Positions 17,052 to 24,507 of a stretch of 64,000 nucleotides of DNA are shown piece after piece. Below the pieces are notes generated by a model, which searched no databases, was not told where the DNA came from, and was given only the letters and a program-made list of their open reading frames with translations. Numbering within the stretch: the first letter of the stretch is position 1; every line of letters starts with the position of its first letter. The stretch is from the NCBI GenBank assembly GCA_026005055.1, contig BPKI01000001.1:248001-312000 (forward strand), written 5' to 3'. Both the position numbers and the translations under genes were made by a program. Source of the stretch: Lysobacterales bacterium (GTDB taxonomy: Bacteria; Pseudomonadota; Gammaproteobacteria; Xanthomonadales; BPKI01).

Positions 17052-18650
17052 TCAGAGGTTCTGGTAGTTCGGGCCGGCACCCCCTTCCGGCGTCACCCAG
17101 TCGATGATCTGGTAGGGATCCTTGATGTCGCAGGTCTTGCAGTGCACGCAGTTGGAGGCGTTGATCTGCAAGCGGCGGCCCGCTGCGTCCTCGACGATCT
17201 CGTACACCCCGGCCGGACAGAAACGGGTGCAAGGATTGCCGTATTCCTGGGTGCAGCGCGTGATGCAGATCGAGGTATCGCGCACCTTGAGGTGCACCGG
17301 CTGGTCCTCGTCGTGCTGGGTGGAGGCGAAGAAGACGCCGGCCAAGCGGTCGCGCGGCGGAAGTTCGCGCGGCCCCCAGTGGCGATCGGGGCTCTGATAG
17401 CGGTCGATGCGCTCGAGGCTTGCGAAATCGGCCTTGTTGGCGAGCGTCCAGGGCGTGCGCCCGGCGAGCATGGTCTCGAGGGCGGCATTGGCAAGGCCGA
17501 ACCACAGGCCTTTCTTGAAGCCCGGCTTGATATTGCGCACTTTGTGAAGCTCGGCGACGATCGGAGAGGCGCGAAGCCGAGCGTCCCAGCCCTCGCTCGA
17601 GAGCCTCTCCGCGAGGTGCTCGGCGGCGAGCATGCCGGAGCGCAGCGCCTGATGGGTGCCCTTGATCTTGGGCACGTTGAGAAGCCCCGCATCATCCCCG
17701 ATGAGCATGGCCCCGGGCATCTCGACTTTGGGCAGGCTCTGGTAGCCGCCGGTGACGATCGCACGCGCACCGGCCGAGAGGATCGAGCCGCCCTCGAGCA
17801 GTCCTTTGACCATGGGGTGGTGCTTCCACTGCTGAAAGGCCTCATACGGCTGGAGCCTGGGGTCGCGGTAATCGAGGCCGACGACGAAGCCGATCGCCAC
17901 CCGATCGCCATCGAGGTGATAGAGGAAACTGCCGCCGTAGGTCTTGCCATCGAGCGGCCAGCCGATGGAGTGCACGACGAGACCCGGCCGCACCCGCCCG
18001 GGAGGCAGCTGCCAAAGCTCCTTCATGCCGATCGAATAGCTTTGCGGCTGCGACTCGGCATCGAGGCCATAGCGGCGGATCAACTGCTTGGCGAGGTGAC
18101 CGCGCGCCCCTTCCGCGAGCACGGTGACCTCGGCCTCGATCTCCACTCCCGGCGTGTAACTCGGCTTCGGCTTTCCTTCCCGATCGAGACCCAAATCGCC
18201 GATGCGCACCCCGCGCGCCGCGCCTTTCTCATCGAACAAAGCCTCGGCGGCGGCGAAGCCCGGGTAAATCTCGACCCCCAACGCTTCTGCTTTGGCGGCG
18301 AGCCACGCGCAGGTCGCGCCCAGGCTGACGATGAAGTTGCCGTGATTGCGCTGCTGCGGCGGCGTGGGCAGGCGGATGGCGCGCTTGCGCGTGAGGAGAT
18401 AAAACCGATCCTCGCTCACCGGCACGCAGATCGGCGGCGGCTCGGCGCGCCATCCTGGCAGGAGCTGATCGAGGGGTTCGGGCTCGATCACGGCGCCTGA
18501 GAGGATATGCGCCCCCACCGTCGAGCCCTTCTCGATCACGCACACGGAGAGCTCGGGCCGGCGCTGTTTGAGGCGAATCGCGCAGGCGAGCCCGGCGGGG
18601 CCGGCGCCCACGATCAGCACCTGATAACGCATCACCTCGCGCTCGCTCAT
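17052..18650 (-). CDS. Electron transfer flavoprotein-ubiquinone oxidoreductase
   Basis: A 532-residue enzyme that passes electrons from ETF (from acyl-CoA dehydrogenases and similar enzymes) to ubiquinone in the inner membrane. The N-terminus has the FAD-binding VLIVGAGPAGLACAIRLKQ; GDDAGLLNVPKIKGTHQAL is the typical mid-protein FAD motif. The C-terminal [4Fe-4S] domain has CTQEYGNPCTRFCPAG and CVHCKTCDIKDP. It ends with the family's P.YQNL. I chose the ATG at 18650 (MSEREVMRYQ), which has GAGG 4-5 bases upstream, over a TTG five codons earlier. The length matches the family. It diverges from the AlkB-type dioxygenase gene. Confidence 0.95.
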   Translation of the reverse strand: MSEREVMRYQVLIVGAGPAGLACAIRLKQRRPELSVCVIEKGSTVGAHILSGAVIEPEPLDQLLPGWRAEPPPICVPVSEDRFYLLTRKRAIRLPTPPQQRNHGNFIVSLGATCAWLAAKAEALGVEIYPGFAAAEALFDEKGAARGVRIGDLGLDREGKPKPSYTPGVEIEAEVTVLAEGARGHLAKQLIRRYGLDAESQPQSYSIGMKELWQLPPGRVRPGLVVHSIGWPLDGKTYGGSFLYHLDGDRVAIGFVVGLDYRDPRLQPYEAFQQWKHHPMVKGLLEGGSILSAGARAIVTGGYQSLPKVEMPGAMLIGDDAGLLNVPKIKGTHQALRSGMLAAEHLAERLSSEGWDARLRASPIVAELHKVRNIKPGFKKGLWFGLANAALETMLAGRTPWTLANKADFASLERIDRYQSPDRHWGPRELPPRDRLAGVFFASTQHDEDQPVHLKVRDTSICITRCTQEYGNPCTRFCPAGVYEIVEDAAGRRLQINASNCVHCKTCDIKDPYQIIDWVTPEGGAGPNYQNL

Positions 18651-18699
18651 CGCCCTCACACCCAAGCCAAGGGAGAGCGGCCATTATTGAAAGCTGGCC

Positions 18700-19320
18700 G
18701 TGAAGAGTGCAATGCGATCCGATTTGCCGGCAGGTTTCACGCTCATGCCCGCATTCCTCTCGGAAGCCGAGGCGGAAGCGGCATTGGCCGCCCTGCTCGC
18801 GGAGGTGCCTTTCTCCCAACCGAGCGTGCGCCTCTTCGGCAAGCTGCGCCCGAGCCCCAGGCTCGCCTGCTGGATGGGCGAGGCGACTTATCGCTATTCG
18901 GGAGTGAGCTACGCGCCCCTTCCGTGGACGCCGACCGTGCTCGCGCTGCGCCGGCGCATCGAACAGGCGCTGCGGGCCTCGTTCAACGGTGTGCTCATCA
19001 ATCTCTACCGCGACGGGCGCGACAGCATGGGCTGGCACGCGGATGACGAACCCGAACTCGGCGCCGAACCGCTGATCGCTTCCTTGAGCCTCGGCGCCGC
19101 CCGCATCTTCGCCATCCGCAGGCGGCCGCGCGGGCCGATCCTGCGCATTCCCCTGCCGCCGGGGAGTCTCTTGGTGATGAGCGGTGCCAGCCAGCGCGAT
19201 TTCCTCCATGCCCTGCCGCCCACCGCGAAGCCAGCGGCAGCGCGCATCAACCTCACCTTTCGGCGCATCCTCGGGCCAAGCGCTCCAGACCGTCGAGCAC
19301 CAGCTCAGGGCGCAGCATGA
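18700..19320 (+). CDS. AlkB-type Fe(II)/2-oxoglutarate dioxygenase (nucleic acid demethylase)
   Basis: A 206-residue AlkB-family oxygenase. The substrate lid is PSPRLACWMGEATYRYSG, and the iron ligands are His and Asp of WHADDE and the His of DFLHALP. The 2-oxoglutarate arginine is in RINLTFR. Layout and length fit the bacterial AlkB2/AlkB-like group that removes methyl groups from damaged bases by oxidation. The short form with NLYRDGRDSMGWHADDE resembles ALKBH2/3. Its last 68 bases overlap, tail to tail, the 3' end of coaX, so transcripts from the two strands would be complementary there. There is no neighbouring ada or alkA; ogt lies 30 kb away. Confidence 0.88.
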   Translation: MKSAMRSDLPAGFTLMPAFLSEAEAEAALAALLAEVPFSQPSVRLFGKLRPSPRLACWMGEATYRYSGVSYAPLPWTPTVLALRRRIEQALRASFNGVLINLYRDGRDSMGWHADDEPELGAEPLIASLSLGAARIFAIRRRPRGPILRIPLPPGSLLVMSGASQRDFLHALPPTAKPAAARINLTFRRILGPSAPDRRAPAQGAA

Positions 19321-19996
19321 GCGGGGGCGAGAGCGCCTTGGCCAAGCTCGCGGCATCCCCGCCAGAAAGCAGCAGGATCGGCCGATGCCCCCAGCGCTCT
19401 TCGAGCAACAGCCGAAAGCGTTCGATCGCCGCCACCAGGCCGTTTTCGCTGCCCAGAGCGATGGCCTCTCCGGTGCTTTGCGGAAAAGGGCCTCGGGCCG
19501 CGCGCTCTTCGGGCCGAGGCGAACGCAAGCGCGGGGCACGCGCGGTGAGCGCGCGCTCGAGCAGCGCTAAACCTGGCAGGATCCAGCCCGGCCAGTGGCG
19601 TCCCTCCCGATCCAAAGCATCCAAGGTCAGGCAGGTGCCCGCGAGCGCGATCGCGCAAGGCGCATGTTCCATCGCCGCGAGCAGGGCGAGCCACCGATCG
19701 ACGCCAAGCTCGCTCGGATCGCGGTAGCCGAGCTTCGGGCCACCGGCCAAGGGGCGGACCGCGACTCGCTCGGCTCGGGCGAAGGGCAGGGCCATGAGCC
19801 GCTCCGCGATCCGCTGGCCCCGGCGACTGCCCGCCACGCTCGCAAGCCAGAGCGAAAGACGCGGCGCGCTGCTCGCCAGGCCCTCGAGGAAACCCCCGGC
19901 CCGGGCCAAGGGGAAGGCGCCTTCCTCCCGGCCTTCGCTGCGCACCAGTCGCCATTTGAGGCGGCTGTTGCCGAGATCGACCAAAAGCGCTGCCAT
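19253..19996 (-). CDS. coaX: Type III pantothenate kinase
   Basis: A 247-residue CoaX, the first enzyme of CoA synthesis, which phosphorylates pantothenate. Visible are the N-terminal phosphate-binding strand LLVDLGNSRLKW (with the DxGNSxxKW signature), the LGVDRWLAL block, and IALAGTCLTLDALD with WPGWILPGL, the glycine-rich substrate region. LLLSGGDA follows near the C-terminus. The usual GT in AGTAxTxD appears as AGTCLTLD. The ATG at 19996 overlaps the birA stop by one base (TGATG), so the two are translationally coupled; birA-coaX pairs are common. The 3' end overlaps the dioxygenase gene by 68 bases. Confidence 0.9.
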   Translation of the reverse strand: MAALLVDLGNSRLKWRLVRSEGREEGAFPLARAGGFLEGLASSAPRLSLWLASVAGSRRGQRIAERLMALPFARAERVAVRPLAGGPKLGYRDPSELGVDRWLALLAAMEHAPCAIALAGTCLTLDALDREGRHWPGWILPGLALLERALTARAPRLRSPRPEERAARGPFPQSTGEAIALGSENGLVAAIERFRLLLEERWGHRPILLLSGGDAASLAKALSPPLMLRPELVLDGLERLARGCAER

Positions 19997-20925
19997 CAGG
20001 ATTGCACCTCCCCGGTGCTCACCGCAACCTGCCCCGAGGCGGTAGCGAGGAGCAGGGCGCCCTCCTCGCTCAGGCCCAAAGCGCGCCCCTCGATCCTTCC
20101 ACCTGCCGCATGCACGCTCAGACTTTGTCCCGCCAGCGCATCGAGACCGGCGAAACGGACGCGAAAAGGCAGAAAGCCCTCGCGCCCGAACTCGGCGATG
20201 GCAGCGCACAAAGCGGGCACGAGCCGGAGGAGGAGCGCCGTCCGATCCGGGCAGGGATCATCCTCCGCCCAACAGGCCGCAGGCACAGGCGCTGCCTGGG
20301 CTGCTTCGGGGCACACGTTGAGGCCGAAACCCACGAGCAACGTGACACCCTGAGCACCCCTCGGCAGCACTTCGACCAGCACCCCGCCCAGCTTACGCCC
20401 CCCTTTGAGCAGGTCGTTCGGCCATTTCACCCGAATATCCCCTCCGCCTGCGGCAATCAGCGCCTCGGCCAGCGCCACCCCGAGCGCCGGCGCGAGCCCG
20501 GCGAGGGCTGACGGCGCCCGCGCGATCGGGGCGACGAGGGTGGCAAGGAGCGCCGACAGCGGCGGGCTCAGCCAGCGGCGGCCCCATCGCCCGCGCCCCG
20601 CGCTTTGCCATTCGGCGACCACGAGGAATGGCGCCGCCTCGCCGGCGGCGAGCAACCGCTTGGCCTCTTCCTGCGTGGAGTCCACGGCGGGACGGTAGAA
20701 AAGCCCAAGCCCCAAGGGGGCGAGCGCCGCCGCCAGATGCCGGTGCGAGAGCGGCGCCCAGCCGGGGGCGAAGCCGAGCACGCCGCCCTCGAGCCAGATC
20801 GGCCAGCCTTGCGCGCGCCAGCTCGCGATGAGCGCCTCTCCCTCGGTGCCGAGAGCGAGCGCCTGTTCAGGCTGAGCGCACATCGCCTCGAGCCAGACCG
20901 GAATCGGCGTCGCCGATGAGCTCAC
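19996..20925 (-). CDS. birA: Biotin-[acetyl-CoA-carboxylase] ligase, shortened N-terminal domain
   Basis: About 309 residues (GTG at 20925 overlapping the plsY stop as GTGA) or 295 (ATG at 20883, with GAGG just upstream). It attaches biotin to the carrier protein of acetyl-CoA carboxylase. Catalytic motifs are VDSTQEEAKRL, the biotinyl-AMP loop SAGRGRWGRRWLSP, VKWPNDLL with GGRKLGGVLVE, and the C-terminal SH3-like RIEGRALGLSEEGALLL. The N-terminus has only the last helix and wing of the DNA-binding domain (RAQGWPIWLEGGVLGFAPG). The first two helices of the HTH found in E. coli BirA are absent, so repressor activity is doubtful. It is the third gene of the fakAB-plsY-birA-coaX operon. Confidence 0.9.
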   Translation of the reverse strand: MSSSATPIPVWLEAMCAQPEQALALGTEGEALIASWRAQGWPIWLEGGVLGFAPGWAPLSHRHLAAALAPLGLGLFYRPAVDSTQEEAKRLLAAGEAAPFLVVAEWQSAGRGRWGRRWLSPPLSALLATLVAPIARAPSALAGLAPALGVALAEALIAAGGGDIRVKWPNDLLKGGRKLGGVLVEVLPRGAQGVTLLVGFGLNVCPEAAQAAPVPAACWAEDDPCPDRTALLLRLVPALCAAIAEFGREGFLPFRVRFAGLDALAGQSLSVHAAGGRIEGRALGLSEEGALLLATASGQVAVSTGEVQS

Positions 20926-21542
20926 TTCGCGAAGAAGCGTTTGAGCAACCAGATCCGCTCGAAGCGGTTTTCGCGCCCTTGGATCAGCCGCTCGATGTTG
21001 GCCTCGTGGCGCAGGATCACGAGCGCGGCCACAAGCCCCGCGAACAGCCGCACCGGCAGCTCGGCAAAGGGAAAGAACGCAAGCAGCGCAAGCGCTGCTG
21101 CGGCAAGAAGGGACGCCAAGCTCACGAAGCCGCTCGCGAGCAAGCCGAGCAGCCAGAGCGCCGCCAAAGCCGGCACCCAGAGCGGCATCAGGAGAAAGCT
21201 CGCGCCGGCGGCGCTCGCCACCCCCTTGCCGCCGCGGAATCCGTGCCAGAGCGGATAGCAATGCCCGAGGACCGCCCCGAGACCCGCCGCCGCCCCCGGC
21301 CAGTCCGGCGTCGCCGGGAGGAGCAGCCAAGCGACGGCGACCGCGAGACTGGCTTTGCCGAGATCGATCAGCACCACGAGCAGCGCCACCCTCGCCCCGA
21401 GCACGCGCAAGGCGTTGGTGCCGCCGGCATTGCCGCTGCCGTGCTCGCGCACGTCCACCCCGAAGAGGCGCCCGAGCAGCAGGCTTCCTGAGAACGAACC
21501 CAGGAGATAACCGATGAGCAGCGCGAAAACCGGCTCGATCAT
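20922..21542 (-). CDS. plsY: Acyl-phosphate:glycerol-3-phosphate acyltransferase PlsY
   Basis: A 206-residue inner-membrane enzyme with about five hydrophobic segments. It moves the acyl group from acyl-phosphate to glycerol-3-phosphate, the first step of phospholipid synthesis. All three active-site loops are clear: GSGNAGGTNALRVLG, GHCYPLWHGFRGGKGVA, and HEANIERLIQGRENRF near the C-terminus. The ATG (21542-21540) overlaps the stop of the fatty acid kinase fusion as ATGA, and its own stop overlaps the birA GTG. The gene just upstream is predicted to make its substrate, acyl-phosphate, which makes the pairing functionally meaningful. Confidence 0.96.
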   Translation of the reverse strand: MIEPVFALLIGYLLGSFSGSLLLGRLFGVDVREHGSGNAGGTNALRVLGARVALLVVLIDLGKASLAVAVAWLLLPATPDWPGAAAGLGAVLGHCYPLWHGFRGGKGVASAAGASFLLMPLWVPALAALWLLGLLASGFVSLASLLAAAALALLAFFPFAELPVRLFAGLVAALVILRHEANIERLIQGRENRFERIWLLKRFFAK

Positions 21543-23395
21543 CGCGAAGCCCCGAGCCGCTCGATCAGCGCGAGCGGTGGTTCGTAATCCTGCACCGCGA
21601 CCAGAAGCGCCCCCGGCCCGGCATGAGCGGCGATGGCGCTGCCCAAAGGCACGATCTCGAGCATCTCGAAGCCGATGCCGGAGCCCGCAAGCCGCGCCCG
21701 CACGCGCGCTGCCGCTTGCGCATCGTCGGCGTGAGCAATGAGCGCCCGATAGCGCCTGCTGCGATTAAGGCGCCTGAGCACCCATTCGGCGAAGCGTTCC
21801 GGCCGACGGCGCCGCGCCACGAGCACACCGGCAATGCCCAAGCGTCCCTGCCGGTTGGTGAGCACGGGCCGCAGGTTCAAACCCTCGCCGAGCCAGCGTG
21901 CGAGGCGCGGCAGGCGCCCCCCGCGCTCGGCGTGGCCGAGGTCTTGAAGCACCGCATAGCTTTTCGTGCGCGGCACCATTGCCTCGACCACCGCCGCCGC
22001 CTCATCGAGCGCAAGGCCGGCGGCGATCGCCTCGGCGGCGTAAGCGACGAGGAGACCTTGTCCCGCCGAAGCGTTTTCGCTGTCGACCAGGCGGATGCGC
22101 CCGCTTGCGTGGCGCGCCGCCGCCTCGGCCGATTGCATCGTCCCCGACAGCCGCCGCGAGAGGTGCACCCCGAGCACGCCTTGGTGATGCGAGAGCAGGA
22201 ACTCGAAGGCGCGCTGAAAATCCGCAGGCGGTGGCTGCGAGGTGCGCGGCGGCGCAGCGCTTGTGCGCAGCCGGGCGAAGAACTCGGCCGGGTGGAGCCC
22301 GAGCTTGTCGAGAAATTCCTCCTCGCCGAAGGCGACGCGCACCGGCACGAGATGGACGCGCGAGGCGGCGAAGAGCTCATCGGGCAGATCGGCACCGGAA
22401 TCGGCAAGCAAAGCGAGGATGGCAGCGCGGCTTTGCTGCGCGCGCATATCATCGACCTTGCACCGCGAGACGGTTCCGAAACGAGCGGCCAGCGCGAAGA
22501 AGGCGGCGGGGTCATCGGCATGGCCATGAATGCGAAGCTTCTCGCGGCTGCCGGCGATGACCAGGCTATCGGCCGGAAGCTGCGCGAGGGCATCGCGCAG
22601 GCTGGCGATCGCGAGATCCGGACCGCTGAGCACGCACTCGCAGCAGTAGCGGAAGCGCGTATCGTCCGCAACCGCCTCGCTTGTCGTTGCGGCGATGAGC
22701 GACGCGGGCTGCTCGGCAAGAGCAGGCTCGAGGCGCGGTCTCCGCCCGCGAAGCAACTCGAGCATGCCGGCGACGAACTCGACGAAGCCCTTGGCCCCGG
22801 CATCCACCACCCCGGCGGCGCGAAGCTCGGCGAGCTTCTCAGGGGTCTCGGCGAGCGCCTTGCGCGCGCCCTCGAGCGCCGACTGCAGCGCCGCGGCGAG
22901 ATCATCGGCACCTTTGCGCGCCTGCTCGAGGAGCTCGGCAGTGAAGGCGCGCATCACCGACAGCATCGTGCCTTCGCGGGGACTGGCCACCGCCGCGTAA
23001 GCCGCGCGCTCACCGGCCGAGGCCGCCTCGGCCAGACCCGCGAGATCGAGGCGGCGGTGGGGCGCCGCGGCGGCGCTGAAGCCGAGCACGTATTGGGCGA
23101 GGATCGCTCCCGAGTTGCCGCGCGCCCCATCGAGGATGGCGTCGGCGAGACGCTGAAGCAGCGCCCCGAGGTGCGCACCTCGCGCATCGCGCAGCGCGGC
23201 GAGCATGGCTCTCAAGGTATGCGAGAGATTCGCGCCCGTATCCCCATCCGGCACCGGGAAGACATTGATCCGATCGAGGAGCTCGCGCTGCGCGAGCACG
23301 CGGGCCACACCCGCCGCCAGGGCGCGCCTGAACGAGGGTGCCGAAAGACGCCGAAGACCGCGCCCGGCCGAGGGCCTAATCGAGCAATCGTGCAT
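21539..23395 (-). CDS. FakA-FakB fusion: DAK2-domain fatty acid kinase joined to DegV fatty-acid-binding domain
   Basis: A 618-residue, apparently single-chain fatty acid kinase. Residues about 25-210 are a DAK2/DhaL ATP-binding domain with the metal-binding motif NVFPVPDGDTGANL and GARGNSGAIL. About 240-320 is the middle FakA domain (FRYCCECVLSG, KLRIHGH, KVDDMRAQ). From about 323 to the end is a DegV/FakB lipid-binding domain (ALLADSGADLP, PPRTSQPPPADF, LSRRLSGTMQSA). In Firmicutes FakA and FakB are separate: FakB presents a bound fatty acid and FakA phosphorylates it to acyl-phosphate. I chose the ATG at 23395 since upstream sequence looks non-coding. It overlaps plsY by 4 bases. The enzymatic role is inferred from the domains. 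Confidence 0.88.
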   Translation of the reverse strand: MHDCSIRPSAGRGLRRLSAPSFRRALAAGVARVLAQRELLDRINVFPVPDGDTGANLSHTLRAMLAALRDARGAHLGALLQRLADAILDGARGNSGAILAQYVLGFSAAAAPHRRLDLAGLAEAASAGERAAYAAVASPREGTMLSVMRAFTAELLEQARKGADDLAAALQSALEGARKALAETPEKLAELRAAGVVDAGAKGFVEFVAGMLELLRGRRPRLEPALAEQPASLIAATTSEAVADDTRFRYCCECVLSGPDLAIASLRDALAQLPADSLVIAGSREKLRIHGHADDPAAFFALAARFGTVSRCKVDDMRAQQSRAAILALLADSGADLPDELFAASRVHLVPVRVAFGEEEFLDKLGLHPAEFFARLRTSAAPPRTSQPPPADFQRAFEFLLSHHQGVLGVHLSRRLSGTMQSAEAAARHASGRIRLVDSENASAGQGLLVAYAAEAIAAGLALDEAAAVVEAMVPRTKSYAVLQDLGHAERGGRLPRLARWLGEGLNLRPVLTNRQGRLGIAGVLVARRRRPERFAEWVLRRLNRSRRYRALIAHADDAQAAARVRARLAGSGIGFEMLEIVPLGSAIAAHAGPGALLVAVQDYEPPLALIERLGASR

Positions 23396-23492: not shown

Positions 23493-23714
23493 ATGAGTCG
23501 CTCTCCGTCGCCGTTCACCTCGCTTCGGCTCCGCATCTGGGCCTTGGCCGCGGTCGGTCTCATCGTCCTGATCCTCGGCCTCTCCGCCGGTGAATCCCAG
23601 ACGGCGAGCCAGTCCCTCGCTGAGCGCGTCACCTCTCCTGCGGTCGAAAGCATTTCCGAGGAAGGCTGGTTGCGGCTGCGCTGGCAGTCCCTGCTGCCCG
23701 GGATGATGAAATAG
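23493..23714 (+). CDS. Small single-span membrane protein, unknown function
   Basis: An open frame of 73 codons starting MSRSPSPFTSLRL. One clear transmembrane or signal-anchor segment (RIWALAAVGLIVLILGLSAG) is followed by a short tail rich in Ser and Glu that ends in WLRLRWQSLLPGMMK. Codon third positions are GC-rich, as in neighbouring real genes. It sits 97 bases from the divergent fatty acid kinase fusion and 16 bases ahead of mtfA, so it may be the first gene of a two-gene unit. No Shine-Dalgarno is evident. I do not recognise the family. It may also be a non-coding leader region of mtfA. Confidence 0.45.
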   Translation: MSRSPSPFTSLRLRIWALAAVGLIVLILGLSAGESQTASQSLAERVTSPAVESISEEGWLRLRWQSLLPGMMK

Positions 23715-23730: not shown

Positions 23731-24507
23731 ATGTGGGGCTGGCTACGCAAACGACTCGCCCCTCCGGAGCTGGCGGAGCCGCTCTGGCAATTCGTGTTGC
23801 AGTCCGTTCCCCCGCTCGGACTCCTCTCTCCCGAAGCGCAAGCGCAGTTGCGCGCCCTCAGCGCGCGATTCCTCGCACGCAAGGCGATCACCGGAGCGGG
23901 GGGGCTTCAGCCGGAACCGGAGCAGAAGGCGATCGTGGCCGCGCTGTGCTGCCTGCCGGTGCTCGAACTCGGCTTCCATTGGCTGCGCGGGTGGCATGAG
24001 GTGATCCTCTATCCGAGCGCTTTCCGGGTACACCGCCGTCACCACGACGAGGACAGCGGCGTGGTCAGCGAATGGCCGGACGAGCTCGCGGGCGAGGCGT
24101 GGGAACAGGGGCCCCTGATCCTCTCCTGGCAGGACATCGAAGCCGATCTCGCCGATCCCTTCTCCGGCTACGCGCTGGTGGCTCACGAAATCGCCCACAA
24201 ACTCGACATGCTCGACGGCGTCTCCGACGGCACGCCACCGATGCCCGCGGGACTGGATTGGCGCGAATGGACGCGAACCATGCAAGCCGCCTACGATCGG
24301 CTGTGCGCCGAGCTCGAGGCCGGGCGCGAGGCCCCGATCGACCCCTACGCCGCCGAAGCCCCAGATGAGTTCTTCGCCGTGACCAGCGAATACTTTTTCT
24401 CCGCGCCGGCGCTGCTTGAGCAGGCGATGCCGGACGTCCATCGCCTGCTGCGACGCTTTTACCGCCCCGCGACCGGCCTCAGCCCGGTGCAGAGAGCTCC
24501 ACCGTGA
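23731..24507 (+). CDS. mtfA: MtfA-family zinc peptidase
   Basis: A 258-residue cytosolic metallopeptidase of the MtfA (Mlc titration factor) family. The zinc site HEIAHKLDMLDG (HExxH plus downstream Asp/Gly) is preceded by SGYALVAHE, and EFFAVTSEYFF supplies the third-ligand glutamate region. The N-terminal LGLLSPEAQAQLRALSARFLARK and the ILYPSAFRV strand are also typical. In E. coli MtfA binds the repressor Mlc and so affects glucose PTS genes, but this family is wider than Mlc. Its last 29 bases overlap the 3' end of the sensor kinase gene on the other strand. The length is normal for the family. Confidence 0.92.
   Translation: MWGWLRKRLAPPELAEPLWQFVLQSVPPLGLLSPEAQAQLRALSARFLARKAITGAGGLQPEPEQKAIVAALCCLPVLELGFHWLRGWHEVILYPSAFRVHRRHHDEDSGVVSEWPDELAGEAWEQGPLILSWQDIEADLADPFSGYALVAHEIAHKLDMLDGVSDGTPPMPAGLDWREWTRTMQAAYDRLCAELEAGREAPIDPYAAEAPDEFFAVTSEYFFSAPALLEQAMPDVHRLLRRFYRPATGLSPVQRAPP

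Follow-up and report, generated by a model that had tools for sequence, protein, structure and literature searches.

A predicted one-chain fatty acid kinase overlapping plsY in a Lysobacterales genome that lacks PlsX

A FakA-FakB fusion upstream of plsY

The stretch of DNA analysed here (the window) comprises 64,000 nucleotides of a Lysobacterales bacterium (contig BPKI01000001.1, positions 248,001 to 312,000). On its minus strand an open reading frame at 21539-23395 encodes a 618-residue protein, in the following termed the fusion, which joins the kinase part of FakA to a FakB-type fatty acid carrier. This protein is probably a self-contained one-chain fatty acid kinase that passes acyl-phosphate to PlsY, the product of the next gene, independently of PlsX. 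The observations on which this reading is based are the domains, the residues, the fold, the gene order, the co-occurrence with PlsY and the absence of PlsX. The features of the fusion and of plsY are as follows.

21539..23395, minus strand: predicted single-chain fatty acid kinase (FakA_N, FakA_L and FakB), 618 aa; open reading frame, Pfam, TIGR profiles and AlphaFold2 model
22757..23257, minus strand: DAK2/DhaL ATP-binding kinase domain, residues 47-213; Pfam PF02734 and FakA_N structure match
22430..22654, minus strand: FakA middle (L) domain, residues 248-322, with a Cys-His-His triad; PF21645 and PMC9136124
21596..22414, minus strand: DegV/FakB fatty-acid-binding domain, residues 328-600; PF02645, TIGR00762 and FakB1 structure match
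21539..21542, minus strand: ATGA, overlap of the fusion stop TGA with the plsY ATG; read from the sequence
20922..21542, minus strand: plsY, acyl-phosphate:glycerol-3-phosphate acyltransferase, 206 aa; TIGR00023 and PF02660

A first-pass annotation of this DNA had described a 618-residue gene with DAK2, FakA middle and DegV/FakB domains whose stop overlaps the plsY start by 4 bases. Both statements were confirmed: the Dak2 (131 bits), FakA-like_M (57.9 bits) and DegV (198 bits) matches all exceed their Pfam cut-offs, and the overlap is the ATGA listed above. PlsY is a member of its family according to TIGR00023 (169.3 bits, cut-off 137.2). The fusion is not a product of chance, because some 76 orthologues, intact or almost so, with 36-50% identity were found within the order, most of them beside plsY. 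A longer reading frame of 704 aa from an earlier start at 23653 was rejected; the relatives begin near residue 13-20.

Lipid enzymes of the host genome

The host genome consists of one contig of 2.44 Mb and is 99.96% complete. It contains a single match to the fusion, a single DegV, and one copy each of PlsB and PlsY; a second, separate DegV/FakB was not found in the genome search. PlsX was not found in the genome by a search that detected it in 8 of 14 control genomes. The gene is cleanly missing from its usual rpmF-plsX-fabH slot, where rpmF now lies about 90 bases from fabH (L049 9588-11341; G000:C1:1867000-1886500) and the order, with names read off the translations, is yceD-rpmF-fabH-fabD-fabG-acpP-fabF. 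Since the usual supplier PlsX is absent, the fusion is probably the only source of the PlsY substrate in this genome.

One of the AMP-binding proteins is a FadD-type ligase that scores above the cut-off of the FadD equivalog. FadL (PF03349) was not found in a whole-genome search, yet besides FadD a gene for electron transfer flavoprotein-ubiquinone oxidoreductase is present in the window (17052-18665).

Co-occurrence and adjacency within the order

Our survey covered 151 genomes from the order, of which 79 had the fusion and 80 had PlsY, with both in 76 (phi coefficient 0.907). PlsX, present in 67 genomes, was uncorrelated with PlsY (phi 0.147): 37 genomes had the fusion and PlsY without PlsX, and 26 had PlsX without PlsY. 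PlsB was nearly universal (148/151). In 73 of the 76 genomes with both genes, plsY followed the fusion on the same strand with at most 130 bases between match ends. The remaining three comprise one pair split by a contig break (G026) and two in which the genes are truly apart (G009 and G011). Three fusion-only genomes (G075, G113, G133) and one plsY-only genome (G072) are explained by cuts at contig ends, leaving G005, G018 and G069, with PlsY and without the fusion, as real exceptions. In each of the families f2, f7 and f12 some genomes have both genes and others lack both, which indicates at least three joint gains or losses of the fusion and plsY. With this co-occurrence, and with PlsX absent from the host genome, the case for a link to plsY is stronger than it was in the first-pass annotation.

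In G018 (L140; G018:C1:531000-540000) PlsY was found together with a PlsX in three pieces with an internal TAG. Because no PlsB match was obtained in this genome, its PlsY probably pairs with PlsX. G018 represents a PlsX/Y-only lineage in the order, with a plsX that may be broken or frameshifted. At another locus (L142, G145:C9:44000-51000) the fusion is broken into two frames near query residues 430-450, as a pseudogene, a frameshift or a sequencing error would produce. In four genomes without the fusion (G001, G012, G052, G053), open frames about 325-355 aa long gave weak matches confined to DegV.

Distribution beyond the order

In a sample of the class, 17 of 369 genomes matched the fusion. 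Fifteen of these lie outside the order, with 11 full-length matches, three cut short and one split pair (G218). The only matches in a sample of the phylum (398 genomes) were two genomes of this order. Named proteobacterial contigs with the fusion belong to Lysobacteraceae, Rhodanobacteraceae (Dokdonella), Wenzhouxiangella, Woeseiaceae and Coxiellaceae. Others are assigned to Neomarinimicrobiota, Acidobacteriota, Aminicenantes, Caldithrix, CSSED10-310, Bacteroidales, Cloacimonadota and Atribacterota. All such bins, the proteobacterial ones included, may hold stray contigs. In 32 of 80 named contigs plsY directly follows the fusion, mostly with gaps of about -8 to +75 bases; 13 of these contigs are from Neomarinimicrobiota and four are other non-proteobacterial contigs (Acidobacteriota, Caldithrix, Aminicenantes and CSSED10-310). 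In the tree, a branch with a support of 96 separates the Pseudomonadota fusions from the others, and Neomarinimicrobiota come next.

Other neighbourhoods were also seen. In Woeseiaceae the fusion follows gspA-gspB of type II secretion and does not lie beside plsY (L057 5436-9797, L062 5640-9827). At two loci a DUF1295 membrane protein similar to phospholipid methyltransferases comes after the fusion (L117 9722-10507, L121 9786-10559).

These neighbourhoods would fit an enzyme that phosphorylates fatty acids mainly for signalling or for detoxifying free fatty acids and lies next to plsY incidentally. The Fak system of Staphylococcus aureus is reported to affect SaeRS as well (PMC5539427). However, the near-perfect co-occurrence with plsY and the adjacency to it extend over ten families and five other phyla, and the substrate of PlsY is acyl-phosphate. 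We therefore regard such a role as improbable.

The C-terminal part is FakB, not the docking domain of FakA

Canonical FakA consists of an N domain that binds ATP, an L domain with the dimer interface and the Cys-His-His triad, and a C domain, a FakB-like fold without a tunnel, which docks FakB (PMC9136124). Since a review names the C-terminal domain of FakA DegV (PMC10146087), we considered whether the protein is an ordinary FakA with a DegV-like C-terminal domain, served by separate FakBs that carry the fatty acid. A composition of DhaL, middle and DegV-like C-terminal domains is indeed common to canonical FakA (PMC10146087, PMC9136124). Nevertheless, the 618-aa protein gave no match to PF13684 (FakA-like_C, the docking domain) in the Pfam search, whereas a canonical 548-aa FakA of the same class, from the gammaproteobacterium G218, matched with 236 bits. 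This control is an ordinary three-domain fakA (L045), followed by a separate fakB of 282 aa (L046). On the strength of it, identity with an ordinary FakA was rejected.

Profile searches agree with this result. Besides its DegV match in Pfam, the C-terminal part reached 220.9 bits with the DegV profile TIGR00762 (cut-off 99.7). The YloV profile stayed below its cut-off (268.5 versus 396.1), with an alignment confined to YloV positions 1-298 of 530, and NF038248, the FakA equivalog, matched only the first half of the fusion (156.7, cut-off 975). The fatty-acid residues and the full length of FakB are present as well, and the genome search found no other DegV that could act as a carrier. It is therefore very improbable that separate FakBs serve this protein. 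It consists of FakA_N, FakA_L and a true FakB, with FakA_C absent and FakB in its place. The designation as a FakA-FakB fusion, made in the first-pass annotation, thus holds for FakA_N, FakA_L and FakB and fails for FakA_C.

The AlphaFold2 model of the fusion (mean predicted local distance difference test score 91.4, predicted template modelling score 0.81) matches both S. aureus partners: FakA_N with a Z score of 35.6 and a root-mean-square deviation (rmsd) of 1.0 A over 208 residues, and FakB1 with a Z score of 33.9 and an rmsd of 2.2 A over 280 of 288 residues. The structure alignment did not include loci from the genome searches. The top whole-model Foldseek match was the FakA-FakB2 complex of Streptococcus suis (PDB 7w7h, E 8.3e-31), the FakA chain of which aligns by sequence with residues 17-322 of the fusion. 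The whole-chain rmsd of about 24 against this complex indicates a different or an unconstrained arrangement of the domains.

Catalytic residues are kept and the docking residue is lost

Published essential residues were mapped onto 63 fusions from several phyla with 28-50% identity. The Mg/ATP ligands N44, D50, D52, T53, N94 and D198, corresponding to FakA N32, D38, D40, T41, N82 and D185, are kept in 62-63 of them; N44 sits just ahead of the Pfam Dak2 match. The triad of the middle domain, C251, H290 and H292 (FakA C240, H282 and H284), is found in 63, 63 and 62 fusions, respectively. In a first set of 40 fusions, the kinase and triad residues had been kept in all 40. In the DegV half, T385, S417, R494 and H591 correspond to FakB1 T62, S95, R173 and H270. 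T385 is present in 59 of the 63 fusions, with Ser in the other four, S417 in 63 and H591 in 60. R494 is invariant (63/63) and occupies the position of the essential Arg173 of FakB (PMC9136124). Hence, neither the metal-binding Asp residues nor the lipid pocket are degenerate, a concern raised in the first-pass annotation; all residues named here are invariant or nearly so.

A different picture emerged for Arg205 of FakB, which is described as completely conserved and binds FakA_C and membranes (PMC9136124, PMC8892158). In our fusion V526 occupies this position. Arg is found in only three of the 63 fusions, most of which have Phe, Leu, Ile, Trp or Val, while it is present in all aligned standalone DegV proteins (2dt8, 3fys, 1pzx, 3lup and L046). 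Docking domain and docking residue have thus been lost together and the catalytic residues kept, which fits tethering instead of docking. In S. aureus, kinase activity is retained by FakA_NL when FakA_C is missing (PMC9136124). The loss of Arg205 could also be taken as a sign that fatty acid phosphorylation has been lost and that the protein is a DhaL-type kinase for another substrate or a fatty-acid sensor, but with all tested catalytic residues kept, including the FakA-specific Cys-His-His and the Arg173 equivalent, this has hardly any probability.

A proposed path into phospholipid for free fatty acids

For the one-chain kinase acting with PlsY, the following mechanism is proposed. The DegV/FakB half would bind a free fatty acid. 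Kinase activity would reside in an active site formed by the DAK2 domain with ATP-Mg, by the Cys-His-His in the middle domain and by Arg494 from the DegV half, and acyl-phosphate would be the product. Tethering would stand in for the docking on FakA_C by which two-part Fak systems capture FakB. Hand-over of the acyl-phosphate to PlsY, encoded by the overlapping gene, would then yield lysophosphatidic acid. Such a route would be one-way and run alongside PlsB, because without PlsX acyl-phosphate is neither made from nor returned to acyl-ACP (acyl carrier protein) by the known enzyme. The fatty acids may be recycled or external; the absence of FadL argues mildly for lipid turnover or another porin as their source.

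Several points weigh against this proposal. FadD and PlsB already give fatty acids a route in this genome, and with FadL absent, uptake from outside is unclear. PlsX is also present in 40 of the 79 fusion-bearing genomes, so that PlsY has two possible donors there. The fusion is apart from plsY in Woeseiaceae and several phyla. As to the co-occurrence, one deletion can remove neighbouring genes together, although G009 and G011 have kept both genes apart from each other. Finally, Arg205 also aids membrane docking of FakB1 (PMC8892158), and its loss could therefore alter fatty acid loading.

It may be speculated that the fused form is the older arrangement. FakA_C would then be a former fused FakB, reduced to a platform for docking after separate FakBs had assumed its role. 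In favour of this idea, which we consider rather unlikely, contigs with fused forms are assigned to eight phyla or more, and the DegV domains of two distant fusions match FakA_C weakly and in register.

Relation to known systems

With FakA/FakB of S. aureus and other Firmicutes (PMC9136124) the fusion shares the DhaL-type ATP domain, the Cys-His-His middle domain, the DegV carrier, Arg173 and the carboxylate-binding residues. In contrast to these systems it is one chain, with the carrier in the place of FakA_C and the docking Arg205 lost, and its host is a Gram-negative bacterium with PlsB and, in this genome, without PlsX. The S. suis complex (7w7h) likewise consists of two proteins, where here there is one chain. 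As in the PlsX/PlsY system of Escherichia coli (PMC11633183), acyl-phosphate would feed PlsY beside PlsB, but its precursors would be ATP and a free fatty acid in place of acyl-ACP and phosphate, and plsX is gone from rpmF-fabH. The FadL/FadD/PlsB route of Gram-negatives (PMC11633183) also leads from free fatty acids to phospholipid, and FadD and PlsB are present here; in contrast to that route, FadL is absent and activation would proceed as acyl-phosphate, not as acyl-CoA.

A 2023 review presents FakAB as a Gram-positive strategy (PMC10146087). According to a 2024 paper, Gram-negatives use FadL/D, and no bacteria other than Xanthomonadales are known to have kept PlsB/C alone (PMC11633183). 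The latter view holds for most genomes of families f2 and f12, where 41 of 49 lack both PlsX and PlsY, and fails in other families; many lineages of the order have PlsY and a one-chain Fak without PlsX. No description of a FakA-FakB fusion was found in the open-licence papers searched. The domains and the chemistry are already known; what is new is the single-chain form, its adjacency to plsY, the lost docking residue and a PlsX-free PlsY. If the proposed route exists, Gram-negatives would have a second, acyl-phosphate way to place free fatty acids in phospholipid, which bears on a possible bypass of fatty acid synthesis inhibitors. A kinase made of one protein would also lend itself well to a structure determination of the closed active site of Fak.

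Neighbouring genes

Downstream of plsY two further genes overlap in the same direction.

19996..20925, minus strand: birA, biotin-protein ligase, GTG start; profile matches, overlaps the plsY stop
19253..19996, minus strand: coaX, type III pantothenate kinase, 247 aa; profile matches, start overlaps the birA stop

The plsY/birA junction overlaps via GTGA (birA GTG at 20925) and the birA/coaX junction via TGATG (coaX ATG at 19996). Together with the fusion-plsY overlap, these junctions make fak-plsY-birA-coaX a single tightly coupled run. In many relatives, birA and coaX are also found downstream of plsY. The first-pass annotation had taken both genes to strengthen the link to lipids. This argument is weak, because the birA-coaX pair is common elsewhere and thus says little on lipids. 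Divergent from the fusion, a gene for an M90-family (MtfA) peptidase is located at 23731-24507 of the window (plus strand), as at many other Lysobacterales loci.

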